Below, piece by piece: positions 5,332 to 20,390 of a stretch of 55,868 bases of DNA (positions are counted from its first letter, which is position 1; each line of letters starts with the position of its first letter). The notes under the pieces were generated by a model that did no database searches, had not been told where the DNA came from, and worked only from the letters and a program-made list of their open reading frames with translations. Source of the stretch: Rhodoblastus acidophilus (GTDB lineage Bacteria > Pseudomonadota > Alphaproteobacteria > Rhizobiales > Beijerinckiaceae); the NCBI RefSeq assembly GCF_900187365.1, contig NZ_FYDG01000017.1, positions 1 through 55,868 of the forward strand, given 5' to 3'. Made by a program: the position numbers and the translations under genes.

Positions 5332-5476
5332 GCGTCGTTCCAAGTTTTCGCCTTACTTGCACGATGAACACAAGCGTCGCCGTTCGCATCCCGGCGCAAA
5401 ACGAATTTGGCTCACAATCTCCCGTGGCGACACGGCCCCGTCAACGCCGCCGCCATTTGCAGACAGCCGAAACCGG

Positions 5477-6142: not shown

Positions 6143-6259
6143 GGCTCAGCCCAGCGCTTTGACTTGGAGCCGGGAGAGGGGACGGCGCGCGCGCGGCCTT
6201 GAATGAGCAGTCATGTTAGAAACTCCGGGCCGGCGCATCGGCCGGCCACTTGTTGATTT

Positions 6260-6280
6260 TGTCGATAAATTTTATTGACA
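6260..6280. promoter_or_regulatory. Palindromic candidate operator in divergent promoter region
   Basis: A 21-base inverted repeat with arms TGTCGATAAA and TTTATTGACA around a central T. Only one base pair of the arms mismatches. It lies in an AT-rich patch between two divergent genes, where a repressor would control both. The shape resembles GntR/FadR-type operators but the regulator is not identifiable here. Confidence 0.5.
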
Positions 6281-6376
6281 TTAAGCGGCGCGCTTTGCAA
6301 GTCTGGCTTCAACACCCAACGTCAGAGCGGCGTCCGCCCGTCTCACGTCGCCGACTTTTCCGAGACGCACCCGCCC

Positions 6377-7771
6377 ATGCCTTCCGAAAATCGCCTCGCT
6401 TATCTCGACCCCGCCCGTTTCGGCGCGCGCGACCCCGGCGCCTATCTCGCCGCGCTCGACGCGCTGCGCTGGGAAAAGCTCCAGCGCCAAATCCGCTATC
6501 TCTGGACCAATGAGGATTATTTCCGCCCGCGTTTCCTCGAAGCCGGCGTGCGCGCGCCAGAGGACATCAGGTCGCTCGACGATTTCCGCCGCCTGCCGGC
6601 CTTTCTCGACAAGACCCGCCATCGCGAAAGCCAGGACGCCTCGCTCGCCCGCGACGGCCATCCCTTGGGCCTGCATCTGACCGCGCCGCGCGACGCCGCC
6701 GTCCACCTCGCCGCGACCTCCGGCACGACGGGAACGCCGACCTTCTACGTCTTCACGCGCAAGGACCAGGAGATCACCTACAAGGTTCTCGGCCGTCTGT
6801 TCCGCGCCGCCGGCATTCGCCCCGGCGACACCACGTTTCACGCCTTCGGCCTGTCGCTGTGGCTCGCCGGCGTCACCTGGGCGCAGGCTCTGGAAGCTTT
6901 TGGCGCGCGGCCGGTCATCCTCGGCGCCGAGGGCGGCGTGCCCAAAATCCTGCGCTACATCCAGATCACCCGCCCGCGCGCCTTGTTCGCCACGCCCTCG
7001 ATGGTCAACCAGCTGATCGAACGCGCGCCCGATGAGATCGGCGCACCGGTCGCTGCGCTCGGCATCGAGATCATCGTCTGCTCCGGCGAACCCGGCGCCA
7101 GCCAGCCCGCGTTCCGCCAGCGCGTGCGCGACCATTTCGGCGCCCAAGTGTTCGACGCCACCGGCGGCGCCTGGCACAATGGCACCATCACCTGCGACAG
7201 CGCCGAGGCGCACGGCATGCACTATATGGCGGAGGATTATTGCTTCCGCTATGACCTCGTCGATCCCGAAACCAAGCAGCCCATCGAAATCCGCGACGGC
7301 GCCGTCGGCGAGGCGATCCACACCGCGCTCGAATATGAGGCGGCGCCGGCGTTCCGCAACGCCACCGGCGACATTCTACGGCTGCATGTCGGCGAATGTC
7401 CGGGCTGCGGCCATTTCGGCGTGCGCATGGAGATCATCGGCCGCGCCGACGACATGCTCGCCATCAAGGGCGTCAAGGTCTATCCGGCGGCGATCCAGAC
7501 TCTTCTGCGCGCCTTCCAGCCCGCCGTTTCCGGCGAATTGCGCATCCGGCTCGACGGCCCGCCGCCGCGCGTTGAACCGCCGCTGAAACTGGCCGTCGAG
7601 GCCGGGCCAAACACCGGCGACGCCGAATGGCCGGCGCTGGCCGGCGCCATCGAGCAGCGCATCCGCGACCTCCTGACGTTCCGTCCGAAAGTGACCATCG
7701 TGCCCTTCGCCTCGCTGCCGCACACGGGCGCGAAAACCAAGCTGATCGAGGTCGCGGGACGCCCGTCATGA
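6377..7771 (+). CDS. AMP-forming CoA ligase, phenylacetate-CoA ligase-like
   Basis: A 464-residue adenylate-forming enzyme of the PaaK-like branch, which activates a carboxylic acid with ATP and CoA. The phosphate loop AATSGTTGTPTFYVFTRKD is present, followed by CSGEPGAS, the ATGGAWHN motif and the C-terminal hinge GRADDMLAIKGVKVYP. The start MPSENRLAYLDP at 6377 is chosen because upstream codons do not match the family. It overlaps the following gene by ATGA. The substrate is unknown. The neighbours (GrdB-like protein, crotonase, TauA-like binding protein) suggest a small acid taken up by a nitrate/taurine-type ABC transporter. Confidence 0.88.
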   Translation: MPSENRLAYLDPARFGARDPGAYLAALDALRWEKLQRQIRYLWTNEDYFRPRFLEAGVRAPEDIRSLDDFRRLPAFLDKTRHRESQDASLARDGHPLGLHLTAPRDAAVHLAATSGTTGTPTFYVFTRKDQEITYKVLGRLFRAAGIRPGDTTFHAFGLSLWLAGVTWAQALEAFGARPVILGAEGGVPKILRYIQITRPRALFATPSMVNQLIERAPDEIGAPVAALGIEIIVCSGEPGASQPAFRQRVRDHFGAQVFDATGGAWHNGTITCDSAEAHGMHYMAEDYCFRYDLVDPETKQPIEIRDGAVGEAIHTALEYEAAPAFRNATGDILRLHVGECPGCGHFGVRMEIIGRADDMLAIKGVKVYPAAIQTLLRAFQPAVSGELRIRLDGPPPRVEPPLKLAVEAGPNTGDAEWPALAGAIEQRIRDLLTFRPKVTIVPFASLPHTGAKTKLIEVAGRPS

Positions 7772-8664
7772 GCGAAGCGCCCATCGCCTATATGGCGCGC
7801 ACCCGCGCCTGGTATCTCGCCCTCGGCTACGACAATCCCTACCAATGGGCGCATCACCAAGACGTCCCCTTCGCGCCCCTGTCCCAACCGCTGCGCGAAA
7901 CCAACGTCACGCTGATCACCACCGCCGCGCCGTTCCAGCCCGACAAGGGGCCGCAGGGACCGGGCGCGCCCTACAACGCCGCCGCCAAATTCTGGGAGGT
8001 CTATTCCGGCGACACGGCGGAAGATCACGACCTGCGCATCGCCCATGTCAGCATCGACCGCAAGCACACCAGCATGGAAGACAGCGGGACATGGTTCCCG
8101 TTGCCGTTGCTGCGGCGCTTGGCGGGGCAGGGCCTGCTGCGGCTGGCGCCGCGTTTCCACGGCCTGCCGACCAACCGCAGCCAGCGCCATACGCTCGATG
8201 TCGACGTTCCCGAACTGTTACGCCGCGTCGAAGCGGATGGGGCGCAGGCGGCGCTCCTGGTCGCCAATTGCCCCGTCTGCCACCAGAGCCTTTCCTTGGC
8301 GGCGCGCGCCCTGGAGCGGAGCGGCGTGGCGACGGTGGTGATGGGCTGCGCCCGCGACATTGTCGAACATTGCGGCGTCCCGCGCCTGCTGTTTTCGGAT
8401 TTTCCGCTCGGCAATTCCGCCGGGCGGCCGGGCGATCCGGCCTCCCAGGAGGAGACGCTGCGCCTCGCGCTGGATCTGCTGGAAACGGCGACGGCGCCGC
8501 GCGCCACCCGGGTCAATCCGCAGATCTGGCCGGGGCCGCCGGACTGGAAGCTGGACTATTCCAACCCCGACCGGCTCGACGCCGCCGAACGCGCGGCGCG
8601 ACGCGCCGAGGCCGAACGCGCCCGCATCGCCGCGAAGCACGCGCGCGAATCCGCCTTGTCCTGA
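7768..8664 (+). CDS. Glycine/sarcosine/betaine reductase component B-like protein (GrdB family, non-seleno)
   Basis: A 298-residue protein resembling the GrdB-type reductase family found in proteobacteria. Conserved stretches are GDTAEDHDLRIAHVSIDRKH at about 81-100, RFHGLPTNRSQRHT, and ANCPVCHQS with C168 and C171. It ends with CARDIVEHCGVPRLLFSDFPLGNSA and a basic tail. No in-frame UGA is seen; the CxxC could take the redox role that selenocysteine has in clostridial GrdB, but this is inference. It overlaps the ligase stop by ATGA and precedes a crotonase by 18 bases, so the three form an operon. The reaction in aerobic bacteria is, to my knowledge, not established. Confidence 0.7.
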   Translation: MSEAPIAYMARTRAWYLALGYDNPYQWAHHQDVPFAPLSQPLRETNVTLITTAAPFQPDKGPQGPGAPYNAAAKFWEVYSGDTAEDHDLRIAHVSIDRKHTSMEDSGTWFPLPLLRRLAGQGLLRLAPRFHGLPTNRSQRHTLDVDVPELLRRVEADGAQAALLVANCPVCHQSLSLAARALERSGVATVVMGCARDIVEHCGVPRLLFSDFPLGNSAGRPGDPASQEETLRLALDLLETATAPRATRVNPQIWPGPPDWKLDYSNPDRLDAAERAARRAEAERARIAAKHARESALS

Positions 8665-8682
8665 ATTTGAGAGAGAACGCCC

Positions 8683-9420
8683 ATGCCTGTCGTCCGTTAC
8701 GAATCCCGCGAGGGGATCGCCGAAATCACCATCGACCGCGCCGAGAAGCACAACATCCTCACCCATCAGGTGGTGGACGAGTTGCACGACGCCTGGGTGC
8801 GATTCCAGGGCGGCGACGACCGCGTCGCGCTCCTCACGGGCGCCGGCGACCGCGCCTTCACCGCCGGCGCCGACCTGCGCGACATCCCCCACGATCTCTG
8901 GCGCGCGGTTCCCAGCGTCGGGGTTGCGGTGGACAAGCCGGTGATCGTCGCCACCGCCGGCCATGTGGTCGGCGGCGGGCTGGTGTTCGTCCAGAGCGCG
9001 GATATGGCCGTCGCCGCCGAGAATACGGTGTTTTCCTATCCCGAGGCCAAGGTGGGCTATTCCGGCGGCCTGATCAGCGCGCTCGCCGCGCGCATCCCGC
9101 ACAAGATCGCGATGGAGCTGCTGCTGGTCGGCGGCGCCATCGACGCGCGGCGCGCCTATGAGGTCGGCCTCGTCAATCGCGTGGTTCCCACGGGAACCCA
9201 GGTCGAGGCGGCGCGGGCGCTGGCGCGCGAAATCGCCGGCAACGCGCCGCAGGTGTTGTCGATGCTGAAGCAATTCGTCGGCGAAGTCCTGCCCAAAGGC
9301 CCGTCCGAACGCGCGGCCATCGCCCGCGCCAGAGTCGCCGCCGTCAACAGCGCGCGCGACTATCACGAGGGGATCGCCGCCTTCCTCGAAAAGCGCAAGC
9401 CCGTCTTCACCGGCGAATGA
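8683..9420 (+). CDS. Enoyl-CoA hydratase/isomerase family (crotonase) protein
   Basis: A 245-residue crotonase-fold protein acting on an acyl-CoA. The oxyanion-hole segments are FTAGADLRDI at about 59-68 and GHVVGGGL at about 93-100. Of the two catalytic glutamates of classical hydratases, the second is present (SYPE, E121) but the first, normally right after the GGG turn, is replaced by V101. This argues against a standard 2-enoyl-CoA hydratase and for an isomerase, hydrolase, decarboxylase or CaiD-like dehydratase. It is the third gene of the ligase operon, preceded by GAGAGAAC, and probably works on the CoA ester made by the ligase. Confidence 0.88.
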   Translation: MPVVRYESREGIAEITIDRAEKHNILTHQVVDELHDAWVRFQGGDDRVALLTGAGDRAFTAGADLRDIPHDLWRAVPSVGVAVDKPVIVATAGHVVGGGLVFVQSADMAVAAENTVFSYPEAKVGYSGGLISALAARIPHKIAMELLLVGGAIDARRAYEVGLVNRVVPTGTQVEAARALAREIAGNAPQVLSMLKQFVGEVLPKGPSERAAIARARVAAVNSARDYHEGIAAFLEKRKPVFTGE

Positions 9421-9437
9421 AAGCAGCGAGGTGTTTC

Positions 9438-10424
9438 ATGTGTAGATTTTCCGCCGCCCTGGCGCTGGCCGTGAGCCTGCTGACCGCATCCGCCGGCCAC
9501 GCCGAGGTCGCCGAAATCAAGCTCGCCAACCAATATGGCTTCGGCCACATCACCCTGACCACGATCAAGGGCGAGAAGCTGATCGAGAAACACGCCGCGC
9601 TTGCGGGCGTCACGCTCGCGCCGAAATGGTTCAACACCCAGGGCTCGGCGACCATGGCCGACGCGCTGCTTTCCGGCTCCGCCGATGTGGTCAGCCTGGG
9701 CACCACCGGCTTTCTCAATCTCTGGGACAAGACCCGCGGCGAGGTCAAGGCGGTGGGGCCGGTGTCCGCGATTCCGATGTATCTGATCACGCGAAATCCC
9801 GCCGTGAATTCGGTCAAGGATTTTTCCGAAACCGACCGCATCGCCGTGCCGGCGGTCAAAGTGTCGCCGCAGGCCGTCTTCCTCCAGATCGCCGCCGCCA
9901 GGGCTTTTGGCGACAAGAGCTTCGACAAGCTCGATCGTCTGACCGTCGCGCTGTCCCACCCCGACGCGACGCAGGCGCTGACGACCGGAGCGGTCAGCGC
10001 GCATTTCACGCCGCCGCCCTTCCATGAGGACGAACTGAAGCTGCCCAACGCCAGGATCATCCTGCGCACCGCCGACGTGTTCGGCGGCGAGACGACGCAG
10101 GTCGTGCTGGCGACCACGCGAAAATTCCACGACGCCAATCCCAAGGTCTATGGCGTCCTGCTGGCCGCGCTGAAGGAGGCGCTGGAAATCCAGCGCACCG
10201 ACCCCAAGCGCGTGGCGGAAAATTACCTGCGCGAAACCGGCGACAAAATGGCGCTGGCCGACGCCGTCAAACAGCTCACCGAATTGGAGCCGGCCTATGA
10301 CTCCGTGCCGCGCAACACCGTGGCGTTCACGGATTTCATGGTGAAGACCGGCGCGATCAAGACCCGCCCGGCCAACTGGAAGGACCTGTTCTTCGCGGAA
10401 ATCCACGACCAGCCCGGTTCCTGA
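9438..10424 (+). CDS. NitT/TauT-type ABC transporter substrate-binding protein (paralog 1)
   Basis: A 328-residue periplasmic binding protein with a Sec signal peptide ending near AGHAEVAEIK. The ATG at 9438 has GAGG at good spacing; an ATG at 9417 overlapping the crotonase stop is the alternative. Blocks such as GSADVVSLGTTGFLNLW, NPAVNSVKDFSETDRIAVP and AHFTPPPFHEDELKLPNA are typical of SsuA/TauA-like proteins. It is clearly paralogous to the binding protein at 18593-19591, which lies with the permease and ATPase. This copy has no permease of its own and probably uses that membrane complex with a different ligand. It closes the ligase operon. Confidence 0.9.
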   Translation: MCRFSAALALAVSLLTASAGHAEVAEIKLANQYGFGHITLTTIKGEKLIEKHAALAGVTLAPKWFNTQGSATMADALLSGSADVVSLGTTGFLNLWDKTRGEVKAVGPVSAIPMYLITRNPAVNSVKDFSETDRIAVPAVKVSPQAVFLQIAAARAFGDKSFDKLDRLTVALSHPDATQALTTGAVSAHFTPPPFHEDELKLPNARIILRTADVFGGETTQVVLATTRKFHDANPKVYGVLLAALKEALEIQRTDPKRVAENYLRETGDKMALADAVKQLTELEPAYDSVPRNTVAFTDFMVKTGAIKTRPANWKDLFFAEIHDQPGS

Positions 10425-10457: not shown

Positions 10458-11474
10458 TCAGACCTCGGCTGGCTCTTGCGCGGCGCGGCGGCTCAACTCC
10501 TCGAACAATGCGGCGGGGATTCTTATCCCCTCCGTCTGCGCCTTTTCTCGCAGGGCGAGGCGGCGCGCGCCGGGCAGGCGGACGCCGTCCTGGTCGAGCA
10601 TGGCCGCGAGCAGGCTTTCGACGCGGGCGAGGGTCGTGGCGCCGCCAAGGCGTTGCGGGTCGATCAGCAGGAACAATTGACCGAGCCGCGGCGGCGCGCC
10701 CTCGGCGTCGAACATCGTGCCGGCTTCATGGCTGAAGGCGCTTCCGGTCAACGCGCCGGCGAGAATTTCCACCATCAGCGCCAGACACGCCCCCTTGGCG
10801 CCGCCGAACGGCGCCAGCGCGCCCTTGAGCGCCTGCGCCGGATCGGTGGTCGGCCGCCCCTCGGGATCGAAAGCCCAATCGGGGGGAATGGACTCGCCCT
10901 TGTCGCGCGCGACCACGATCTTGCCGCGCGCCGCCGCGCTGACCGAGAGATCGACCACCAGCGGCGCGTCCGTCGCGCGCGGGCAGGCGAAGGCGATCGG
11001 GTTGGTTCCGAACAGGGCCTTTTTTCCGCCCCACGGCGCCAGCGCGGCCTGGGTGTTGGCGAAGGCCAGCGCCACAAGACCGTCGCGGGCGGCGGCCTCG
11101 ACATGATGGCCCATCACCCCGGCGTGGTGGGAATCGCCGACCGCCGCCAAGGCGAGACCCTGTTCGCGGGCGAGGCGGCCGCCTTCGGCCAAGGCCAGTT
11201 CGATCGCCGGATAAGCGAAGCCTTCGCGCGCGTCGACATGGAGCAGAGCAGGGGCGCGGCGCTCGGCGACAGGGTCGGCGGCGGCCCTGACTTTGCCGCT
11301 CGCCGCCTGGTCGGCGTAATAGGGCAGGCGCATCAGGCCGTGCGAGGCGAGGCCGTCCGCCTCGGCTGCGACCAGCGCCCGCGCGACGGAGCCAGCGACG
11401 CGTTGCGGCGCGCCCGCCGCGCGCAGAGCCTGCTGGGCGAGGGCTTCGGCCTGACGCAAAGAGAGCTGTCTCAT
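10458..11474 (-). CDS. comC: Malate/lactate dehydrogenase-2 family enzyme, probable (R)-sulfolactate dehydrogenase (ComC-like)
   Basis: A 338-residue NAD(P)-dependent 2-hydroxyacid dehydrogenase of the LDH2/MDH2 family. The motif GDSHHAGVMGHHVE carries the catalytic His, and APWGGKKALFGTNPIAFA is the family block that follows. The ATG at 11474 has AGGAG at 8 bases. ComC of this family oxidises (R)-sulfolactate to sulfopyruvate, and the divergent operon encodes sulfolactate sulfo-lyase, so sulfolactate is the best substrate guess. Malate, lactate or ureidoglycolate remain possible from sequence alone. It could link the pool to sulfopyruvate for racemisation or for other entry routes. It converges with the paralog-1 binding protein. 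Confidence 0.75.
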   Translation of the reverse strand: MRQLSLRQAEALAQQALRAAGAPQRVAGSVARALVAAEADGLASHGLMRLPYYADQAASGKVRAAADPVAERRAPALLHVDAREGFAYPAIELALAEGGRLAREQGLALAAVGDSHHAGVMGHHVEAAARDGLVALAFANTQAALAPWGGKKALFGTNPIAFACPRATDAPLVVDLSVSAAARGKIVVARDKGESIPPDWAFDPEGRPTTDPAQALKGALAPFGGAKGACLALMVEILAGALTGSAFSHEAGTMFDAEGAPPRLGQLFLLIDPQRLGGATTLARVESLLAAMLDQDGVRLPGARRLALREKAQTEGIRIPAALFEELSRRAAQEPAEV

Positions 11475-11477
11475 CAA

Positions 11478-11549
11478 TCGGGACTCCTGGAGACGATTTG
11501 TCGCTCTTTATAGTTGATTAAATCACTTAAATAAATAGACTAGCTTATC
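11478..11549. promoter_or_regulatory. Divergent promoter region of the sulfonate cluster
   Basis: A 72-base AT-rich gap between the ComC-like gene and the ten-gene operon. It contains an 11-base palindrome TGATTAAATCA at 11515-11525, a candidate operator for a regulator controlling both directions. No clear Shine-Dalgarno precedes the ATG at 11550. Core promoter elements cannot be fixed with confidence. Confidence 0.45.
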
Positions 11550-12305
11550 ATGTGTTCGATCAAGGGCGCGACGCCCCACCCGTCGCCAGAACCCGCCTCG
11601 CGCGAAACTCCCGTCCTCCCGCCATGGCGCCTGCGCATCTGGCGCAGCGAGGCCGCCGTCATGCAGGCCTATGAGGTTCCGCGCGCGCCGAACCAGACCG
11701 TGCTCGATCTCGTGACCTGGGTGCAGCGTCATCTCGAACCCGATCTCGGCTATCGCTACGCGTGCCGGGTCGGCATGTGCGGCTCCTGCGCCATGATGGT
11801 GAACGGCGCGCCGCGCTGGACCTGCCGCACCCTCGCCGAGACGGCGGCCAAGGCGGGCGCGCTGGAAATCCGGCCGTTGCGCAATCTGCCGGTGGTCAAG
11901 GACCTCGCCACCGACATGGCGCCGTTTTTCGACAAGTGGCGCCGCGCCGATGGCAAGTTCCACGGCCGCGCGGCGCAGGATTTCGCCGCCATCGCGATGG
12001 ACGCGCCGGGGCGCGCGGAAGCCTCCGCCGGCATTGAATGTATCGGCTGCGGCGTTTGCTATGCGGCCTGCGACACGGTGGCGGCCCTGCCGGCCTATCT
12101 CGGCCCGGCCGCCCTGAACCGCGCCTGGACCTGCCTCAACGATGCACGCGAGGCCGCGCCGCGCCGCCATCTCGCCGCCATCGCCGATCAGGCCGTGCTG
12201 TGCCACGGCCAGGAGAACTGCAGCGCGCATTGCCCGGTCGGCCTCGATCCGGCGGGCGGAATTTTCGGCCTCAAGCGCGCCCTGCTTTTTGGCGGAAACG
12301 TCTGA
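11550..12305 (+). CDS. Succinate dehydrogenase/fumarate reductase-like iron-sulfur subunit
   Basis: A 251-residue electron-transfer subunit of the SdhB/FrdB family. The N-terminal [2Fe-2S] site is C72, C77, C80 and C92 (YACRVGMCGSC..WTC). The C-terminal clusters use C164, C167, C170, C174 (ECIGCGVCYAAC) and C218, C224, C228 (LCHGQENCSAHCPVGLDP), the usual set for [4Fe-4S] and [3Fe-4S]. It passes electrons from the flavoprotein to quinone through the membrane subunit. It is the first gene of the operon and its TGA overlaps the next ATG by one base. Order here is B-C-A, unlike the housekeeping sdhCDAB. It is therefore probably a specialised paralog with its own substrate. Confidence 0.92.
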   Translation: MCSIKGATPHPSPEPASRETPVLPPWRLRIWRSEAAVMQAYEVPRAPNQTVLDLVTWVQRHLEPDLGYRYACRVGMCGSCAMMVNGAPRWTCRTLAETAAKAGALEIRPLRNLPVVKDLATDMAPFFDKWRRADGKFHGRAAQDFAAIAMDAPGRAEASAGIECIGCGVCYAACDTVAALPAYLGPAALNRAWTCLNDAREAAPRRHLAAIADQAVLCHGQENCSAHCPVGLDPAGGIFGLKRALLFGGNV

Positions 12306-12877
12306 TGCGCGAACGCGTCCTGTTTCGCTTGCAGCGCCTGTCCGCGCTGGCGCTGATCGGCTTCGTCGCGGCGCATCTCGCGGGCATCCTGGTCTTCACC
12401 CATCGGGGCCTGAGCGCCGCCGTCATTCTGGGCCGAGTTCAAGACTGGCTTTGGCTTTATGGCGTTTTCGCCGTCGTCGCCGCGCTCCATGCCGGCATCG
12501 GCCTGCGCGCTCTGGCGCGCGAGCGTTTCCGCTTCGCGCCGCGCCGCCACGCCCGCCATGTCGCCTTCTACGCGTTCGCCGCGCATCGCCTTACCGGGCT
12601 GGCTTTAGCGCTGTTCCTGGCGCTGCATCTGGCGGCGCTCTGGCGATTGCCCGACGCCGAAATCTTTGACGGCGCGCTGGCGCTGACGGCGCATCCGCTG
12701 GCGCGCGCCGGCGAAATCCTGATCGTCGCGGCGCTGGCGCTGCATCTCGCCGGCGGCGCGCGCATTCTGGCCGCCGAATTTTTACCCGGCCGGGCGCGCG
12801 GCGGGGGACGCATCGCGGCCTCCGTGCTGTTCGCCGGGGCCGTCGCCGCCGCCTATGCGCTGTGGGGGCAGGCATGA
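12305..12877 (+). CDS. Succinate dehydrogenase/fumarate reductase-like cytochrome b membrane anchor
   Basis: A 190-residue integral membrane subunit with about five helices, corresponding to a single-chain (SdhC+SdhD-like) anchor. Heme-ligand type His residues sit in AAHLAGILVFTH, LHAGIGLRAL, HRLTGLALALFLALHLAALW and LHLAGGARIL. Four or more suitable histidines could bind one or two b hemes. It should deliver electrons from the iron-sulfur subunit to the quinone pool. It overlaps the iron-sulfur gene by one base and the flavoprotein gene by ATGA, so the three subunits are translationally coupled. Confidence 0.85.
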   Translation: MRERVLFRLQRLSALALIGFVAAHLAGILVFTHRGLSAAVILGRVQDWLWLYGVFAVVAALHAGIGLRALARERFRFAPRRHARHVAFYAFAAHRLTGLALALFLALHLAALWRLPDAEIFDGALALTAHPLARAGEILIVAALALHLAGGARILAAEFLPGRARGGGRIAASVLFAGAVAAAYALWGQA

Positions 12878-14583
12878 CCTTTGATACCGCCGCGACCGAC
12901 ATTCTCATCCTCGGGGCAGGGGGCGCCGGCCTGCTGGCCGCGCTGCACGCCCACGATTCCGCGCCAAACCTGTCGATCGCGCTCGTGGTCAAGGGATTGC
13001 TCGGCAAATGCGGCTGCACCCGCATGGTGCAGGGCGGCTACAATGTCGCGCTCAACCCCGCCGATTCCATCGAACGCCATTTCATGGACACGATCGAGGG
13101 CGGCAAGTGGCTCAATCACCAGGAACTGGCCTGGACGCTGGTCAATGGCGCGGTCGAGCGCGTGCATGAACTGGAAAACCGCTGGGGCTGTTATTTCGAC
13201 CGCAACCCCGACGGCTCCGTCCACCAAAAAGCTTTTGCGGGACAGAGTTTCGACCGCACCGTCCACAAAGGCAGTCTGACCGGCATCGAGATTATCAACC
13301 GCCTGTCCGAGCAGGTTTACGCCCGGCCGATCACGCGGTTCGAGGAGCATCGCGCGATGGCTTTGATCCCTTCGCGCGATGGCGAACAAATCGCCGGCGC
13401 GCTGCTGGCGGACATGCGCACCGGCGGCTTCCGGCTCGTGCGCGCCAAAACCGTGCTGCTGGCCACCGGCGGCGGACCCAGCCTTTACCGCTATCACACG
13501 CCCTCCGGCGACAAGAGCTGCGACGGGCTGGCCATGGCGCTGCGGCTGGGCCTGCCTTTGCGCGACATGGAAATGGTGCAGTTCCATCCCACCGGGCTGG
13601 TGCGCGGCGACCATACCCGCGTCACCGGCACCATCATCGAGGAGGGCCTGCGCGGCGTCGGCGGCCATGTGCTCAACGGCTTGGGCGCGCGTTTCATGGA
13701 CCGCTACGACCCGCGCGCCGAACGCGCCACCCGCGACATCGTCAGCCGCGCCATGTTCGAGGAAATGCGGCAGGGCCGCACCGGACCGCATGGCGGCCTG
13801 TTCATTTCCATGGCCCATCTCGACCCAAAAATGGTGCGGCGGGAGTTCAAGGGCATGGTGGACCGCTGCGCCGATGTCGGTTTCGATCTCGTCGGCGGTC
13901 TGGTCGAGGTGACGCCGACCGCGCATTACATGATGGGCGGCGTGGAGATCGCGCCCGACGCCGCCACCGCTCTGCCCGGCCTGTTCGCCGCCGGCGAGGA
14001 CACCGGCGGCGTGCATGGCGCCAACCGGCTCGGCGGCAATGGCGTGGCGAACTCCACCGTGTTCGGCGGCATAGCCGGAAAATCGCTGGCGCGTTTCGCC
14101 GCGTCGTCGCGCGGCGCCCCCGAACCCGACGCCGATGTCGCCGCGCGCGCCGTGGACGCGGCGGCGCGGCCGTTCCGGGAAAAGCCCGGCGGGCTTTATC
14201 CCTTGCGCGAAAAGCTGCTGGGCCTGATGTGGGACAAGGTCGGCATCGTCCGCGACGGCGCGGGGCTGGTCGAGGCTTCGCACGAACTGGCCAATATGGC
14301 GGACGAGGTATTGTCGGTCGGCGTCGCCGGATCGGCGCGGTTCAGCGCCAGCTGGCACGACCGGCTCAATGTCGAAAACCAGATTCTGGTCGGACGCGCC
14401 ATCGCCGCCGCCGCGCTCGCGCGCACCGACTCGCGCGGCGCGCATTTCCGCGCCGATTTTCCGGAGTGCGGGCCTTTGACTGAAAGCGCCAATACCTTGG
14501 TCCGTCTCGACGGCGCGATCCTCCAGACATCGACGCGCGCGGTCAAATTCAGCCGCGTCAAACCGGGGCGAAGCCTGACATGA
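12874..14583 (+). CDS. Succinate dehydrogenase/fumarate reductase-like flavoprotein, candidate 3-sulfopropionate dehydrogenase
   Basis: A 569-residue FAD subunit. The dinucleotide loop GAGGAG is at 14-19. The FrdA/SdhA substrate site is largely kept: H238 (QFHPTGL), R287 (TRDIVSRA), H351 (TAHYMMGG) and R385 (HGANRLGGN). Two departures stand out. The position of the His that carries covalent FAD is C48 (GCTRMVQGG), so FAD should be non-covalent. The Thr-Glu pair that binds the substrate carboxylate is E256-E257 (IIEEGLRG). Both point to a substrate other than succinate or fumarate. With a fumarase-like hydratase and SuyAB downstream, oxidation of 3-sulfopropionate to 3-sulfoacrylate is proposed; fumarate reduction is the main alternative. 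Confidence 0.85.
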   Translation: MTFDTAATDILILGAGGAGLLAALHAHDSAPNLSIALVVKGLLGKCGCTRMVQGGYNVALNPADSIERHFMDTIEGGKWLNHQELAWTLVNGAVERVHELENRWGCYFDRNPDGSVHQKAFAGQSFDRTVHKGSLTGIEIINRLSEQVYARPITRFEEHRAMALIPSRDGEQIAGALLADMRTGGFRLVRAKTVLLATGGGPSLYRYHTPSGDKSCDGLAMALRLGLPLRDMEMVQFHPTGLVRGDHTRVTGTIIEEGLRGVGGHVLNGLGARFMDRYDPRAERATRDIVSRAMFEEMRQGRTGPHGGLFISMAHLDPKMVRREFKGMVDRCADVGFDLVGGLVEVTPTAHYMMGGVEIAPDAATALPGLFAAGEDTGGVHGANRLGGNGVANSTVFGGIAGKSLARFAASSRGAPEPDADVAARAVDAAARPFREKPGGLYPLREKLLGLMWDKVGIVRDGAGLVEASHELANMADEVLSVGVAGSARFSASWHDRLNVENQILVGRAIAAAALARTDSRGAHFRADFPECGPLTESANTLVRLDGAILQTSTRAVKFSRVKPGRSLT

Positions 14584-15506
14584 TTTTGCTCGACACGCTC
14601 GACGCCACGGCGGGCGAATTGATGCGCCGCGCCGCGATCGACATTCCCCCGGACATGCGCGAAGGCGTGCGCCGCCTCGCCGAAGCCGAGACCGAAGATC
14701 TGCCCCGCTTCGTGCTCAACGCCATGCTGGAAAACTGGGAGGTGGCGGAGCAGGACCGCCGCGCCATGTGCGCCGACACAGGCCTGCCGCGCTGGTACGT
14801 CAAGGCCGGCAATGACGCGCGCGTCGAGGGCGGTTTTATCGGCCTCGAACGCATTTTGCGCACGGCCACCGCGCGGGAAACCGCGGCGATTCCGCTGCGG
14901 CCCAACCGCGTGCATCCGTTGAGCCGGCGCGACCTCAACAACAATTGCGGCATGGGCGCGCCGGAGATCGACTACAGTTTCGAGCCAGACGCCGACTGGA
15001 TCGACCTGATCGCGGTCCATAAGGGCGGCCTGTTCGGCACGGACTGGCGCATGCTGTTCCCCGGCGACGGGATCGACGGAATCAAGCGTTTCTTCCTCGA
15101 TTGCCTGCTGCAATTCGGCAAGCGCGGCCTCGCCTGCCAACCGGCGATTTTTGGAATCGGCCTCGGCGGCTCCAAGGATGCCTGCATGGTCTTGGGCAAG
15201 CAGGCGGCCTGCCTGCGTCCCGCCGGCTCGCGCCATCCCGATCCGCAAATCGCCGCGCTGGAGGACGACTTGCAGGCGCTGGCGGAAAAGTCCGGCATGG
15301 GCGCGATGGGTTTCGTCGGCCGCTCCATGTCGGTCGATGTGCATGTCGAGGCCGCCTACACCCATACCGGCGGCATGCCGGTTTCCATCCACGCCTTCTG
15401 CCTGTCGTCGCGCCGCGCCGTCGCCCGGCTTCACGCCGACGGCCAAGTGGACTTCCGCGACGACCCGCAATGGTTCACGCCCTATTCGCGCCGGGAGGGT
15501 TTATGA
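14580..15506 (+). CDS. Class I fumarase/tartrate dehydratase-like alpha subunit
   Basis: A 308-residue [4Fe-4S] hydro-lyase alpha subunit, FumA-N/TtdA-like. Candidate cluster cysteines lie in MCADTGLPRWYV, NNNCGMG and RGLACQPAIFGIGLGGSKDACMVLGKQAA, the last block matching the GIGGT region of the family. It overlaps the flavoprotein stop by ATGA and the beta subunit by ATGA. Split alpha and beta genes are usual for tartrate dehydratase and archaeal-type fumarases. Next to a succinate dehydrogenase-like complex and SuyAB it most likely hydrates the unsaturated product of that complex. Sulfoacrylate to sulfolactate is proposed; fumarate/malate or tartrate are alternatives. Confidence 0.85.
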   Translation: MILLDTLDATAGELMRRAAIDIPPDMREGVRRLAEAETEDLPRFVLNAMLENWEVAEQDRRAMCADTGLPRWYVKAGNDARVEGGFIGLERILRTATARETAAIPLRPNRVHPLSRRDLNNNCGMGAPEIDYSFEPDADWIDLIAVHKGGLFGTDWRMLFPGDGIDGIKRFFLDCLLQFGKRGLACQPAIFGIGLGGSKDACMVLGKQAACLRPAGSRHPDPQIAALEDDLQALAEKSGMGAMGFVGRSMSVDVHVEAAYTHTGGMPVSIHAFCLSSRRAVARLHADGQVDFRDDPQWFTPYSRREGL

Positions 15507-16162
15507 AGACGCACCGCCTCACCCTTCCCGTCACCGCCGACGACCTCAAGCCGCTGCGGCCCGGCGACGTGGTCTATCTCAATGGCGTGCTCTACACCGG
15601 GCGCGAGGGTCTTTACCGGCGCTGGCTCGACGAGGGACTCGCGCCGCCGCTCGATCTGGCGCGGATCTCCAACGCCAATTTCCATTGTTCGCCGGCGGCC
15701 AGCGTGGCGGCCGACGGAACCGCGCGGCTCGGCGCCGTGACGGCCACCGCCAGCTTCCGTTTTTCCAAGTGGATCGGTCGGTTTCTCGACCTGTCGCAGG
15801 CCCGGATCGTCATCGGCAAGGGCGGCATGGCCGAGCGCGATTACCGCGATCATTTCGTTCCCCATCAGGCGATCTATCTGACCACGGTCGGCTATGGCGC
15901 GGGCGCGCTGCTGGGGCGGGGCGTCAGGCGCGTGCAGGGCGTGCATTGGCTGGAGGAACTGGGGATCGCCCAGGCGATCTGGGTGCTTGAGGTTGCGGAA
16001 TTCGGTCCATTCCTGGTCGAGTCCGACCTTGAGGGACGCTCGCTGTTCGCCGAACAGTCGCGCCGAATCGATCAGGGAATTGACGCGCTTTACGCCGGCC
16101 TCAAGCCGCCGGCGCTCGGCCGCTTCGGCGAATGCGTCGAACGTTGGAAAGAAATACTATAA
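15503..16162 (+). CDS. Class I fumarase/tartrate dehydratase-like beta subunit
   Basis: A 219-residue beta subunit (Fumerase_C fold) that completes the hydratase. The opening LTLPVTADDLKPLRPGDVVYLNGVLYTGRE and the later GKGGM segment are typical. The normally strict GPTTSGRMD substrate motif is replaced by TATASFRFS at about 80-88: the Arg and one Thr remain, the rest differ. This motif contacts the substrate carboxylate in class I fumarases, so a changed ligand such as a sulfonate would fit, though divergence alone does not prove it. The start overlaps the alpha subunit stop by ATGA. A 73-base gap follows before the permease gene. Confidence 0.85.
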   Translation: MKTHRLTLPVTADDLKPLRPGDVVYLNGVLYTGREGLYRRWLDEGLAPPLDLARISNANFHCSPAASVAADGTARLGAVTATASFRFSKWIGRFLDLSQARIVIGKGGMAERDYRDHFVPHQAIYLTTVGYGAGALLGRGVRRVQGVHWLEELGIAQAIWVLEVAEFGPFLVESDLEGRSLFAEQSRRIDQGIDALYAGLKPPALGRFGECVERWKEIL

Positions 16163-16235
16163 ACGTAGTCGATATTGCATGACTCCGGCGCGGCATGCGG
16201 CTATAGTCCTACTCAGTTGATCGGTTTAGAGCGCA

Positions 16236-17084
16236 ATGACCCTTCCTGTCTCCATCCCCCTCGCCGCCAGCGCGCCCGCTCCCGCCGCGCGCACCCTGCC
16301 GCTGTGGCGTCGCGCCTTCAATATCACCGCGCTGCGGCGCGGGCTGATTCTCGTCGCGCTGGCCGCTCTGTGGCAGGCCTATGCGGTCTGGGCCGACAAT
16401 CCCCTGATGTTTCCCTCCTTCACCGAGACGGCGCAAGCGTTCTGGCAGGGGATCGCCAGCGGCGGCCTGCTGGGAAAAGCCTGGACTTCGGTGCAAGTGC
16501 TGCTGATGGGCTATGCCCTGGGGGTGGCGCTCGCTGGCGTGCTCGCCGCGCTGGCCGCCTCGACACGGATCGGGGAGGATCTGCTCGCCACGCTCGTCGC
16601 CATGTTCAACCCGCTTCCGGCCATCGCGCTGCTGCCGCTGGCCTTGCTGTGGTTCGGTTTGGGAACGCCAAGCCTGCTGTTCGTGCTGGTCCACGCCGTG
16701 CTGTGGCCGCTGGCGCTCAACATGTCCTCGGGCTTCGCCGCCGTGACCGAAACCCTGCGCATGGCCGGCCGCAATTACGGCCTGCGCGGCTTGCGCTATG
16801 TCGCGTTGATCCTGATCCCCGCCGCCTTTCCCTCCATCCTCACCGGCTTGAAAGTCGCGTGGGCCTTCGCCTGGCGCACGCTGATCGCCGCCGAACTGGT
16901 GTTTGGCGTCGCCTCAGGATCCGGGGGGCTGGGCTGGTTCATCTTCGAGAACAAGAACCGTCTCGAAACGGCGAGCGTCTTCGCCGGCCTCGGCGCGGTG
17001 ATCCTGATCGGCCTGCTGGTCGAGGGACTGGTGTTCCGCACCATCGAAATCGCCACCGTCCGCAAATGGGGCATGCAGCGCTGA
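16236..17084 (+). CDS. NitT/TauT-type ABC transporter permease
   Basis: A 282-residue inner-membrane permease of the TauC/SsuC family with about six helices. The ATPase-contact EAA loop is at GRNYGLRGLRYVALILIPAAF, before PSILTGLKVAWAFAW. These systems import taurine, alkanesulfonates, nitrate or related anions. The matching binding protein and ATPase are 18593-19591 and 19593-20390, on the other side of suyAB, so transport and catabolic genes are interleaved. The 73-base gap upstream has a possible weak promoter (ATGACT, 17 bases, TATAGT at 16202-16207), so the transporter-suyAB half may also be transcribed separately. Confidence 0.93.
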   Translation: MTLPVSIPLAASAPAPAARTLPLWRRAFNITALRRGLILVALAALWQAYAVWADNPLMFPSFTETAQAFWQGIASGGLLGKAWTSVQVLLMGYALGVALAGVLAALAASTRIGEDLLATLVAMFNPLPAIALLPLALLWFGLGTPSLLFVLVHAVLWPLALNMSSGFAAVTETLRMAGRNYGLRGLRYVALILIPAAFPSILTGLKVAWAFAWRTLIAAELVFGVASGSGGLGWFIFENKNRLETASVFAGLGAVILIGLLVEGLVFRTIEIATVRKWGMQR

Positions 17085-17121
17085 GCCGGCGCGCCCCGCA
17101 TCCACCAAGGAGTCAGTCATC

Positions 17122-17409
17122 ATGTCCGCGCCCGATTTTCTCGTACACGATTCAGCCGACAATGTCGGCGTGGTCGTGGTCGAAAACGCCGAAGCCGGCC
17201 GCGCCTTGTCCGGCTGGGTGATCGAAAACGACAGCACGATTCAAGTGCCGTCGATCGACCGCATTCCGCTCGGCCACAAGATCGCTCTGGTCGATATTCC
17301 CGCCGACGCGACCATCGTCAAATACGGTCACGGCATCGGCCGCACCGTCGCGCCGATCGCGCGCGGCGGCCATGTGCATGTGCAGAATCTCAAGACCAGG
17401 CGTTGGTGA
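17122..17409 (+). CDS. suyA: (R)-sulfolactate sulfo-lyase small subunit (SuyA-like)
   Basis: A 95-residue SAF-domain protein, the small subunit of a split altronate dehydratase-type enzyme. It opens with [23 protein letters not shown] and ends with the SAF-type block [22 protein letters not shown]. In SuyAB this small chain pairs with a large UxaA-like chain to cleave (R)-3-sulfolactate to pyruvate and sulfite. Length and separate coding match SuyA rather than the fused hexuronate enzymes. AAGGAG lies 12 bases upstream. The gene sits between a sulfonate-type permease and suyB, which supports the sulfolactate role over altronate or galactarate. Confidence 0.88.
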
Positions 17410-17411
17410 AA

Positions 17412-18575
17412 ATGAGCAAGAGTTTCTTTGGCTATCGTCGCGAGAACGGCCGCGTCGGCGTGCGCAACCATGTCATCATCCTGCCGCTCGACGATCTGTC
17501 CAACGCCGCCGCCGAGGCCGTCGCCAACAACATCAAGGGCGCGCTGGCGCTGCCGCACCATTACGGCCGGCTGCAATTCGGCGCCGATCTGGAATTGCAT
17601 TTCCGCACGCTGATCGGGACCGGCGCCAACCCCAATGTCGCGGCGGTCGTGGTGATCGGCATCGAGCCGGGCTGGACCGGCCGCGTGGTCAAGGGCATCG
17701 AAGCCACCGGCAAGCCGGTCGCCGGCTTCTCGATCGAGGGCCATGGCGACATTTCGACCATCGCCTCGGCCTCGCGCGCGGCAAAAGATTTCGTGCATTG
17801 GGCGAGCGAGCGCGTGCGCGAGGAGGCGCCGATTTCCGACCTCTGGGTTTCCGTGAAATGCGGCGAATCCGACACCACTTCGGGCCTGGCCTCCAACCCG
17901 ACCGTCGGCAATTTCATCGACAAGGTCGATGCGCTCGGCGCCACCACCTGTTTCGGCGAAACCTCGGAACTGACCGGGGCCGAAAAGGTCTGCGCCGCCC
18001 GCGCTGCGACGCCGGAAGTGGCGGAGAAATTTCTAAAAACCTGGACCGCCTATAACGACTTCATTCTCGCCAACAAGACCAACGATCTTTCCGAGAGCCA
18101 GCCGACCAAGGGCAATATCGAGGGCGGCCTGTCCACCATCGAGGAAAAGGCGTTCGGCAACTTCCAAAAGATCGGCCACAAGGCGCGGTACATCGACGTG
18201 CTGGAGCCGGCGGAGGCGCCGTCCAAGGGGCCGGGGCTGTATTTCATGGACACGTCCTCGGCGGCGGCGGAATGCGTCACGCTTCAGGCGGCGGCGGGGT
18301 TCGCGGTGCATCTGTTTCCGACGGGGCAGGGCAATGTCATCGGCAATCCCATCGTTCCCGTCATCAAGCTGACGGCCAATCCGCGCACCGTCCGCACCAT
18401 GCCCGAGCATATCGACCTTGACGTCTCCGGCATTTTGCGGCGCGAGCTGACGTTCGACGAGGCCGGCGACCGGCTGTTGGCGCTCGCCTTGCGCACGGCC
18501 AATGGCCGTGTCACGGCCGCCGAGGCGCTGGGCCACCGCGAGTTCGTGATGACCAAACTTTATCGCAGCGCCTGA
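17412..18575 (+). CDS. suyB: (R)-sulfolactate sulfo-lyase large subunit (SuyB-like)
   Basis: A 387-residue UxaA-family large subunit. The opening [20 protein letters not shown] and the metal-site block [18 protein letters not shown] are characteristic, followed by [11 protein letters not shown] and, near the end, [19 protein letters not shown]. With SuyA it releases sulfite from (R)-3-sulfolactate, leaving pyruvate. Size agrees with known SuyB (about 390 residues). The ATG at 17412 is 2 bases after the suyA stop. Sulfite made here needs oxidation or export, and no gene for either is in the window. This is the best functional anchor in the cluster. Confidence 0.88.
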
Positions 18576-18592
18576 GGCCGGGGGAGACCGCC

Positions 18593-19591
18593 ATGACATT
18601 TCGCAAAATGGGCTTCGCCGGCATGGCGGTTCTCCTCGCCGGCCCCGCCTTCGCCGAAGTCAGCGAATTGCGCATCAGCCAGCAGTTCGGCATCGGCTAC
18701 CTGCCGTTGCAAGTCGCGCGCAACCAGGGGCTGATCGAGAAGCAGGCTGCGGCGCTGGGGATCGCCGGGCTAAAAGTCTCGTATGTCACGCTGGGCGGCG
18801 GCGCCTCGACCAATGACGCGCTGCTGGCCGACGCCATCGACATCGGCACCGGCGGCGTCGCCGCCTTCCTGCCGCTCTGGGCCAAGACGCGCGGCACGGC
18901 GCTGGAGGTGAGGGGCGTGGCGGCGCTGACCGCCATGCCGATCGCGCTGGTCTCCACCAATCCAGCGGTCAAGTCGCTGAAGGATTTTTCCGACAAGGAC
19001 CGCATCGCGCTGCCGTCGGTGAAAATATCGATCCAGGCGGTCACCCTGCAGATCGCGGCGGAAAAGGCTTTTGGCCCGGGCCATGCGGACAAGCTCGACG
19101 CCCTGACCGTTTCGATGAAACATCCCGACGCCTATGCCGCGCTGGCCTCAGGCAAGTCCGAAATCACCGCGCATTTCGGCGGGCCGCCGTTCCAGCAGCA
19201 GGAGCTGGCGCTGCCGAACGCGCGCAAGATCACCGATTCCTACGAGGCGCTGGAAGGGCCGGCCACGTTTAACGTCGCCTGGGCCAAAGCCAGTTTCCGC
19301 GCGAAGAATCCGACGGTTTACAAGGCGTTCATCGCCGCGCTCGAACAGGCCGACGCGCTGATCGCCGCCCATCCCGAGCAAGCGGCCAAGATCAGCGTGA
19401 CGGAGGAGCCCGGGGTCGCCGAGCCGCTGGCGCTGTCGATCATCACGGACCCGAATTCCAAATTCACCACCACGCCGCTGAGCGTGGGCAAATATGCCGA
19501 CTTCCTGTATCGAACCGGCGCGATCAAGGCCAAGGCGGAGAGCTGGCGCGATCTGTTCTTCCCGGACATTCACCAACAGGCGGGCTCGTAA
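18593..19591 (+). CDS. NitT/TauT-type ABC transporter substrate-binding protein (paralog 2)
   Basis: A 332-residue periplasmic binding protein. The signal peptide ends near GPAFAEVSELRI, and GGGGGAG-type Shine-Dalgarno sequence lies just upstream. It shares with paralog 1 (9438-10424) the order of motifs NPAVKSLKDFSDKDRIALP, KISIQAVTLQIAAEKAFG and AHFGGPPFQQQELALPNA. The pair therefore arose by duplication and probably bind related anions. This copy lies between suyB and the ATPase gene, so it is the likely sulfonate receptor of the complete transporter. The actual ligand, sulfopropionate or sulfolactate, cannot be told from sequence. Confidence 0.92.
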   Translation: MTFRKMGFAGMAVLLAGPAFAEVSELRISQQFGIGYLPLQVARNQGLIEKQAAALGIAGLKVSYVTLGGGASTNDALLADAIDIGTGGVAAFLPLWAKTRGTALEVRGVAALTAMPIALVSTNPAVKSLKDFSDKDRIALPSVKISIQAVTLQIAAEKAFGPGHADKLDALTVSMKHPDAYAALASGKSEITAHFGGPPFQQQELALPNARKITDSYEALEGPATFNVAWAKASFRAKNPTVYKAFIAALEQADALIAAHPEQAAKISVTEEPGVAEPLALSIITDPNSKFTTTPLSVGKYADFLYRTGAIKAKAESWRDLFFPDIHQQAGS

Positions 19592-19592
19592 G

Positions 19593-20390
19593 ATGAACGC
19601 CATGCCGTCCTTCCACGCGCCCGATCTCGACGGCGCCGGCGCGCCCGCGCAGCTTGCGGTCGAGAATCTCACTCTGCGCTACGCCACCCATGCCGCGCTG
19701 GTCACGGCGACGGAAAACGTCAGCTTTTCGGTGCGGCGCGGCGAGCGCTTCGTGCTGCTGGGGCCTTCGGGCTGCGGGAAGTCGTCGCTGCTGAAAAGCA
19801 TTGGCGGCTTCATCGCGCCGGCGAGCGGGCGCATCCTGGTCAACGGCCGCGAGGTCACGGGGCCAGGGCCAGACCGCATGATGGTGTTCCAGGAATTCGA
19901 CCAGCTGATGCCGTGGAAGACCGTGCTCGGCAATGTGATGTTCCCGCTGGTCGAAACCAGGAAGTTCGCGCGCCGCGACGAGGCGGAAGCCCATGCCCTC
20001 GCCACCATCGCCAAGGTCGGATTGGCGAAGTTCGCCCATTCGTTTCCGCATGAATTAAGCGGCGGCATGAAGCAGCGCGCGGCCATCGCCCGCGCCCTGG
20101 CGATGGAGCCGGAAGCGCTGCTGATGGACGAGCCGTTCGCCGCGCTCGACGCGCTGACCCGCCGCACCATGCAGCAGGAATTGCTCAAGCTTTGGGAGGA
20201 GTTGCGGTTCACGCTGATGTTCGTGACCCATTCGATCGAGGAGGCGGTGCGGTTGGCGCAAAGGATCATCCTGCTGTCGCCGCATCCCGGCCGCATCCGC
20301 GATGAATTCCGCACCGGCGCCGACGAGGCGCCTGCGGCTTTGGAACGGCGCATCGAAAGCCTGTTGTTCACCGACGGCGGCGGCATCTAG
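19593..20390 (+). CDS. NitT/TauT-type ABC transporter ATP-binding protein
   Basis: A 265-residue ATPase of the TauB/SsuB family. Walker A is GPSGCGKSS, the Q-loop is MMVFQEFDQLMPWKTV, the signature LSGGMKQR, Walker B LLMDEPFAALD and the switch His is in VTHSIEEAV. It completes the importer with the permease at 16236 and the binding protein that ends 1 base before its ATG at 19593. It is the last gene of the sulfonate operon; debris of unrelated genes follows. Confidence 0.94.
   Translation: MNAMPSFHAPDLDGAGAPAQLAVENLTLRYATHAALVTATENVSFSVRRGERFVLLGPSGCGKSSLLKSIGGFIAPASGRILVNGREVTGPGPDRMMVFQEFDQLMPWKTVLGNVMFPLVETRKFARRDEAEAHALATIAKVGLAKFAHSFPHELSGGMKQRAAIARALAMEPEALLMDEPFAALDALTRRTMQQELLKLWEELRFTLMFVTHSIEEAVRLAQRIILLSPHPGRIRDEFRTGADEAPAALERRIESLLFTDGGGI

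Follow-up and report, generated by a model that had tools for sequence, protein, structure and literature searches.

3-Sulfopropionate is a natural product. Its conversion via sulfoacrylate to sulfolactate, as part of homotaurine degradation in Roseovarius nubinhibens ISM, was described in the thesis of J. Mayer as quoted in PMC11489063. The quoting passage names no enzymes or genes, and bacterial degradation of 3-sulfopropionate is presented there as unreported apart from the thesis. According to the same paper, Enterococcus gilvus forms 3-sulfopropionate from sulfoquinovose and 2,3-dihydroxypropane-1-sulfonate (DHPS), and 3-sulfopropionate supports H2S production by Bilophila. Passages of two reviews state that 3-sulfopropionate degradation needs further study (2022; PMC9594981) and call the Bilophila mechanism unclear (2026; PMC12890257), and Paracoccus pantotrophus NKNCYSA is said in a literature passage to degrade homotaurine. 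In the parts of the open-access literature that were searched, we found no genes for the route from 3-sulfopropionate to sulfolactate. Here we describe a ten-gene cluster with one divergent gene in a stretch of 55,868 nt (the window; contig NZ_FYDG01000017.1) within the 4.71 Mb draft genome of Rhodoblastus acidophilus (74 contigs). It encodes a complex resembling succinate dehydrogenase (SDH), a fumarase-like hydratase, an ATP-binding cassette (ABC) importer and a SuyAB-type sulfo-lyase. Its best reading is that of a candidate genetic basis for the reported 3-sulfopropionate route, built on a complex II branch and a hydratase that are both distinct.

The cluster very probably belongs to a sulfonate pathway whose last step is SuyAB. 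The reading that best fits its sequence is that its products take up a C3 sulfonate and desulfonate it completely, and that this sulfonate is 3-sulfopropionate; we consider this reading probable. The ABC importer would bring in 3-sulfopropionate, which the SdhBCA-like membrane complex would dehydrogenate to 3-sulfoacrylate, passing electrons to quinone; the FumAB-like hydratase would add water to give (R)-3-sulfolactate, from which SuyAB would eliminate sulfite, leaving pyruvate. Sulfite might be exported by TauE-type proteins, three of which are encoded elsewhere in the genome, and the ComC-like enzyme encoded by the divergent gene would connect the sulfolactate pool with sulfopyruvate.

SuyAB converts (R)-3-sulfolactate to pyruvate and sulfite. 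Under the Cahn-Ingold-Prelog rules, the substituents at C2 of malate rank OH, COOH, CH2COOH, H, and those of sulfolactate OH, CH2SO3, COOH, H; ranks two and three are exchanged, so that the L-malate geometry is labelled (R) in sulfolactate. This argument, which assumes that the hydroxyl is added next to the carboxylate, had been put forward in a preliminary description of the locus and is right, but the conclusion drawn there that no racemase is needed holds only in part. The fumarase-type geometry matches the SuyAB substrate; as a general rule, however, the conclusion fails, because SlcC is encoded at an identity of at least 47% in 16 of the 80 related loci described below. ComC and SlcC oxidise sulfolactate, and the pair is the known sulfolactate 'racemase'. 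The central idea of the preliminary description, a sulfonate analogue of succinate-to-malate chemistry, has a precedent in the Mayer thesis as quoted in PMC11489063.

Sulfo-lyase assignment and recurrence of the gene set

SuyA and SuyB are encoded separately in the window, as a small and a large (GD_AH) subunit. The small SuyA-like open reading frame (ORF) has no match in Pfam and matches the N-terminal part of the galactarate dehydratase model weakly; it is 47% identical to SuyA-like proteins of Cupriavidus pinatubonensis, Paracoccus versutus and Methylobacterium radiotolerans. SuyB is 69% identical to a plasmid copy in C. pinatubonensis HN-2 that adjoins hpsN and hpsO, and among 316 plasmid records matching SuyB, 13 reached at least 60% identity, the next best being 42%. 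Four alignment columns hold a cysteine common to E. coli UxaA and GarD (the latter as its first 406 residues, the fetched stretch); the window SuyB and three other SuyB-like proteins lack three of these cysteines and keep one. This pattern agrees with PMC6336799, where SuyAB is described as being without the conserved cysteines of UxaA and GarD. An altronate or galactarate dehydratase was rejected on the identity gap and the cysteine pattern. The protein passes the sequence tests for the sulfolactate sulfo-lyase clade, apart from other UxaA proteins, and the sulfonate-degradation setting and SuyAB assignment of the preliminary description stand with it.

The ComC-like protein scored 210.7 bits against the (R)-sulfolactate dehydrogenase model NF040650 (cut-off 500) and is not an equivalog match. 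It is 52% identical to the products of Ldh-family genes in the sulfolactate clusters of M. radiotolerans and P. versutus, and could interconvert (R)-sulfolactate and sulfopyruvate. No SlcC at an identity of 50% or more was found in the draft genome (best, 42%).

Related loci were collected by scanning a genome collection with the SdhA-like flavoprotein, the best 80 of at least 589 encoding stretches (62-72% identity) being used; neighbourhood counts refer to the 45 of these with at least 19 kb (full-length loci). A fumarase-like gene is present in 40 of the 45, and SuyB at an identity of at least 60% in 27; co-localisation in other genomes had been set beforehand as a test of the proposal and is borne out by these counts. 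ComC-like genes occur in 26 of these loci, TauE-like in 17 and SlcC-like in 13, and a sulfate exporter and a sulfite oxidase in two each; some of the matches to TauE, ComC and SlcC, all of them broad families, are weak. At least one of SuyB, TauE, the sulfate exporter and the sulfite oxidase is encoded in 35 of the 45. Chance co-location was rejected, as the same gene set recurs across related loci and genomes.

Among named organisms, the SDH-like and fumarase-like set was found in M. radiotolerans (suyAB about 4 kb away), P. versutus (suyAB at a distance of about 21 kb, accompanied by a hisD-annotated gene that we take for HpsN), Pseudomonas MPC6, Sulfitobacter THAF37, M. nodulans, Pseudorhizobium NT-26 and P. 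seriniphilus, and by tblastn in Cupriavidus P-10 and R. jostii RHA1. In the actinobacterium RHA1, SdhA-, fumarase-, ComC-, SlcC- and SuyAB-like genes lie within 37 kb. P. pantotrophus DSM 11072 has a shortened version, in which the match spans SdhA residues 196-572 and no SdhB match was found in the fetched 25 kb. In several of the named clusters, even where the stretch seen has no SuyAB, the set is adjoined by a gene for TauE, a sulfite dehydrogenase or a YeiH-type sulfate exporter. The NT-26 cluster includes a tripartite ATP-independent periplasmic (TRAP) transporter, a YihU-like reductase (324 versus 348 bits for the sulfolactaldehyde 3-reductase model) and a succinate-semialdehyde dehydrogenase over the TIGR01780 cut-off. 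These extra genes fit 3-hydroxypropanesulfonate or DHPS as the entry compound, ambiguously between the two, and the reductase and dehydrogenase could also make sulfolactate from DHPS.

The association extends to 385 genomes of the same class (384 without the host). The SdhA-like gene is present in 32 of the 385, once with an internal TAG, and SuyB in 34. With the host excluded, SuyB occurs in 19 of 31 SdhA-positive genomes (2.7 expected; Fisher p 1e-15) and Xsc in 13 of 31 (3.8 expected). These genomes are not phylogenetically independent; the SdhA-like gene and SuyB occur together in 12 families, that of the host included.

Further features of the related loci were noted. An enzyme of the thiamine pyrophosphate-dependent acetolactate synthase/2-hydroxyacyl-CoA lyase family is encoded near the SdhA-like gene in 24 of the 80 loci (49-59% identity; e.g. 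L083:13652-15277). Its identification as Xsc was rejected, the M. radiotolerans protein scoring 161.9 bits against a cut-off of 676.4. Loci L085 and L117, whose stretches as seen contain no SuyAB, combine MmsA with the SDH-like/fumarase-like set; L117 and L087 have an amidohydrolase in common, and a small NIPSNAP-family gene adjoins the sulfate exporter in four plasmid clusters (L084, L085, L116 and L118). A plasmid of the haloarchaeon Natribaculum luteum carries SdhA-like, SdhB-like and TauE genes, a UxaA-type pair with a SuyB-like cysteine pattern and an ArgH-like lyase, with no fumarase annotated. The ArgH-like neighbour scores above the argH cut-off and was not used as evidence. XcbC, which is related to it, makes sulfoacrylate; among the papers listed, none contained the term sulfoacrylic.

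A separate complex II branch and two hydratase types

The flavoprotein, iron-sulfur and membrane subunits of complex II are all encoded in the cluster. In a 34-protein tree, 23 SdhA proteins of the window type formed one branch (support 100/100). Of the host's other proteins of this family, a canonical SdhA (contig C53, over the TIGR01816 cut-off) grouped with E. coli SdhA, a fumarate reductase (FRD)-like SdhA (C39) with FrdA, and a NadB-like protein (C44) with NadB. The genome also encodes a FumC-type fumarase (C29; 635.7 bits, just under the cut-off of 664.75) and another class I fumarase (C31). With separate SDH and fumarases on other contigs, the window enzymes as the only SDH or fumarase of the cell were rejected; they are extra paralogues.

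The SdhA alignment comprised 87 rows (the 80 loci, six plasmid loci and the window), and in all of them the histidine that links flavin adenine dinucleotide (FAD) is replaced by Cys, the substrate threonine Thr244 of E. coli FrdA by Glu, and the Ser of the NSL motif by Gly. H232, E245, R287, H355 and R390 (E. coli FrdA numbers) are kept in all 87 rows. K49 and R54 are invariant as well, and an added loop, T252-R/K253-x-T255 (Thr-Arg-x-Thr), is nearly so. E. coli SdhA, FrdA and NadB, the three host paralogues and five outgroup proteins carry Thr or Ser at the site of Thr244; in the outgroup proteins, position 394 is Ser and position 260 Thr or Ser. Numbered from the GTG at 12862, the signature of the window SdhA is K49, C52, R54, R253, T255, E260 and G394; all but K49 of these are also kept in the full-length members of NT-26, P. 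seriniphilus, P-10 and RHA1 (50-62% identity), and the RHA1 protein departs at 49, 252 and 257.

Thr244 supports the transition state according to a passage of PMC10238741, from which the roles of the substrate and acid-base residues are taken. Because the covalent-FAD His and the substrate Thr are absent, the SdhA-like protein is not a simple copy of succinate dehydrogenase, and a plain succinate dehydrogenase is unlikely. The preliminary description had spoken of a succinate dehydrogenase-like complex in a sulfonate copy of succinate-to-malate chemistry: the family membership of the complex and its standing as a paralogue apart from the host SDH are upheld, but the loss of both residues was not foreseen there. 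As reported in PMC5773532, the covalent FAD bond lifts the flavin potential from -145 to -55 mV, and E. coli variants without it still reduce fumarate and cannot oxidise succinate. Since succinate oxidation is tied there to covalent FAD, the potential may be raised otherwise (speculatively, through a cysteinyl link or by the new Arg close to the flavin), the substrate may differ, or the proposed direction may be wrong.

In the alpha subunit of the hydratase, Cys 64, 186 and 274 align with the cluster cysteines of TtdA and FumA. The subunit is 66% identical to those of P. versutus and MPC6, 38% to that of M. radiotolerans, which represents a second type (type B), and 30% to TtdA. The residue after the first cluster Cys is Ala in the window and Ala or Gly in the 17 other type A rows; it is Gln in all 53 ungapped type B rows (54 in total), in TtdA and in FumA. 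Stretches around SdhA were fetched in the 31 SdhA-positive genomes, some of them cut off where the contig ends: a type A hydratase is encoded in 18 and a type B in eight, and in five none lies within reach. SuyB is present in 8/8 type B and 8/18 type A genomes (Fisher p 0.009), and Xsc in five of the ten type A genomes without SuyB. That the one SDH-like branch occurs with two hydratase types so distant from each other suggests that the reactions form a fixed pair, alkene formation followed by hydration.

Contrary evidence and alternative readings

Several observations weigh against a dedicated 3-sulfopropionate pathway. A number of the named clusters have no SuyAB within the stretch seen, 10 of the 45 full-length loci lack any sulfite marker, and only two of the 45 have a sulfate exporter gene and two a sulfite oxidase gene. 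Two of these ten loci were scanned (L002 and L010); both have an SDH-fumarase operon with SuyAB not nearby and with neighbours that look unrelated, and L002 is one of the nearest relatives of the window in the SdhA tree. A semialdehyde dehydrogenase is encoded near the SdhA-like gene in 1/80 loci (31%) and a GabT-like aminotransferase in 2/80 (29-31%). Among the 31 genomes, five have the SdhA-like gene and a type A hydratase with neither SuyB nor Xsc, and one more lacks both and has no fumarase-like gene in the fetched stretch. The versatility control pcaG is enriched too (21/31 against 6.3 expected, p 2e-9), so metabolic versatility explains part of the SdhA-SuyB signal; the link nevertheless stays inside the 78 pcaG-positive genomes, where SuyB is present in 17 of 21 SdhA-positive genomes (p 9e-11). 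The lost FAD-linking His counts against simple oxidation, and the Glu at the substrate Thr site is not obviously suited to an anionic substrate. TauE is a broad family present in 14/14 control genomes, and the draft genome yielded no sulfite dehydrogenase, its only Oxidored_molyb match being MsrP. A local homotaurine module was rejected, the GabT-like matches being few and weak; that route is not general among the loci.

A proteomic result touches on the same question. According to PMC12421959, a cluster labelled 'fumarate and tartrate metabolism', which includes a TauE gene, is raised on sulfofucose in Paracoccus; the authors of that paper propose a tentative link to the Krebs cycle. The gene order in P. 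versutus leads us to infer that this may be the cluster described here, which could give that result another meaning. As sulfofucose gives sulfolactate and not 3-sulfopropionate in that work, induction there would not single out 3-sulfopropionate, a further point on the contrary side.

Accessory enzymes of ordinary C4-dicarboxylate metabolism (succinate, fumarate or tartrate) that merely neighbour a sulfolactate module are an unlikely explanation. Family resemblance and the existence of stand-alone SDH-fumarase operons speak for it, but the cell already has an SDH, an FRD-like protein and a FumC-type fumarase, the clade is deep and separate with an altered pocket, and sulfite-handling neighbours occur even where the stretch seen has no SuyAB.

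We also think it quite improbable that the same logic serves another substrate, sulfosuccinate or a further sulfonated dicarboxylate being oxidised, hydrated and then desulfonated by SuyAB. These enzyme families act on C4 dicarboxylates, the sites for the two acidic groups are largely kept, and the residue beside the first cluster Cys sets type A hydratases apart from the rest of the class I fumarases. Against this, SuyB falls in the sulfolactate clade beside hpsNO, conversion of 3-sulfopropionate to sulfolactate has already been reported (Mayer thesis as quoted), and a search of the literature on sulfosuccinate gave no such gene link in the passages returned.

There is a comparably small chance that the SDH-like complex oxidises a lower-potential bond of a sulfonate, such as the C-OH of sulfolactate or, by analogy with L-aspartate oxidase, the C-N of cysteate, with the hydratase on a side branch. 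Loss of the FAD-linking His as in NadB would suit lower-potential oxidations, and the Glu that replaces the substrate Thr might accommodate an amine or a hydroxyl; however, the fumarase-like partner in 40 of the 45 loci and the two distant hydratase types indicate an alkene product, and ComC and SlcC already oxidise sulfolactate.

Least probable is that, in clusters without SuyAB, the type A hydratase places the hydroxyl on the sulfonate-bearing carbon, giving malonate semialdehyde and sulfite, with MmsA leading on to acetyl-CoA: MmsA (over the TIGR01722 cut-off) lies directly 3' of fumB in MPC6 with a 61% identical one near the P-10 cluster, type A lacks the Gln common to type B, TtdA and FumA, and SuyB is absent in 10/18 type A against 0/8 type B genomes, but full-length MmsA at this identity or above is limited to those two clusters, plus a fragment in M. 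nodulans, half of the SuyB-less type A genomes have Xsc and could be served by a Roseovarius-type route, and the window itself has SuyAB.

Taken at its widest, and with little expectation that all parts hold, the complex II branch, spanning Proteobacteria, an actinobacterium and a haloarchaeon, might be dedicated to sulfonates as a 3-sulfopropionate:quinone oxidoreductase with FAD bound non-covalently or through the invariant Cys, and the hydratase of SuyAB-less clusters might release sulfite by placing the hydroxyl on the sulfonate carbon to give malonate semialdehyde. If true, this hydratase-driven sulfite release would be a new kind of C-S cleavage. The more modest proposal, a 3-sulfopropionate pathway ending in SuyAB, would add a complex II branch with an altered flavin site, and its named gene set makes the question of 3-sulfopropionate degradation open to knock-out and assay.

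Locus layout and comparison with known systems

All ten plus-strand genes (11550-20390) and the divergent Ldh_2 gene were confirmed by ORF listing and by Pfam and NCBIfam scans, at the positions assigned to them in the preliminary description. The genes are tightly packed, with TGATG at 12303-12307 and ATGA overlaps at 12874-12877, 14580-14583 and 15503-15506. Start codons were corrected for fumB (ATG 15503), suyB (ATG 17412), the ATPase gene (19593) and the ComC-like gene (11474).

Table 1. Genes of the cluster and the adjoining binding-protein gene, with the basis of each assignment.
Feature	Position	Strand	Basis and remarks
Second SsuA-type binding protein	9417..10424	+	41% identical to the first one; cluster membership uncertain
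ComC/AllD-like dehydrogenase (Ldh_2, PF02615)	10458..11474	-	Family scan
SdhB/FrdB-like iron-sulfur subunit	11550..12305	+	TIGR00384, 156 bits against cut-off 88; 13 Cys; start codon uncertain
SdhC-like membrane anchor	12305..12877	+	PF01127; 190 aa, five hydrophobic segments; ATG 12305
SdhA-like flavoprotein	12862..14583	+	PF00890 and PF02910; start GTG 12862 or, probably, ATG 12874
Class I fumarase/tartrate dehydratase-like alpha subunit, type A	14580..15506	+	PF05681
Class I fumarase/tartrate dehydratase-like beta subunit	15503..16162	+	PF05683
ABC importer permease	16236..17084	+	PF00528
SuyA-like small subunit	17122..17409	+	Identity to SuyA-like proteins
SuyB-like large subunit, (R)-sulfolactate sulfo-lyase (putative)	17412..18575	+	PF04295 and PF20629
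SsuA-type periplasmic binding protein	18593..19591	+	TIGR01728, 72.6 bits, below cut-off 163.5
ABC importer ATPase, taurine/nitrate type	19593..20390	+	Family scan

The binding protein within the cluster is 47-51% identical to those of the M. radiotolerans and P. versutus clusters, and there is a single membrane-anchor gene in the window against two in the plasmid relatives. Upstream, positions 3178-10424 resemble a second catabolic set, with a coenzyme A (CoA)-transferase III ORF, a CoA ligase, a PrdB-like protein, an enoyl-CoA hydratase and the second SsuA-type binding protein. The first of these is a 721-aa frame (3178-5343, minus strand) with an AraC-type arabinose-binding N-terminal domain followed by the CoA-transferase III domain, possibly a regulator-enzyme fusion. 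The D-proline reductase PrdB-like protein (7765-8664, plus strand; E 1.6e-19, well below cut-off) lies between the CoA ligase and the enoyl-CoA hydratase, an unexpected setting. Chemotaxis receptors are encoded on both flanks.

The SdhBCA-like complex resembles complex II and the L-aspartate oxidase family (SdhABCD, FrdABCD) in subunit make-up, FAD fold and the equivalents of H232, H355, R287 and R390, and differs in forming its own clade, in the three replacements (Cys for the FAD-linking His, Glu for T244 and Gly for the NSL Ser) and in the extra T-R-x-T loop. The hydratase shares its domains and three cluster cysteines with the class I two-subunit fumarases and L(+)-tartrate dehydratase (TtdAB), whereas its alpha subunit is only about 30% identical to TtdA and carries the type A Ala/Gly where the others have Gln. 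SuyAB-like and ComC-like genes are held in common with the SuyAB systems of P. pantotrophus, Chromohalobacter salexigens and C. pinatubonensis that work with SlcC and ComC; the window, in contrast, places an SDH-like/fumarase-like module ahead of them, and its draft genome has no SlcC at or above 50% identity. HpfXYZ of E. gilvus (PMC11489063) would be a parallel case, in which enzymes that normally belong to the succinate type are adapted to its sulfonate analogue, although HpfXYZ makes 3-sulfopropionate and the window cluster would consume it. The intermediates proposed here are those of the Roseovarius route, as quoted from the Mayer thesis in PMC11489063, to which the present locus would add a candidate gene set with SuyAB as the last step.

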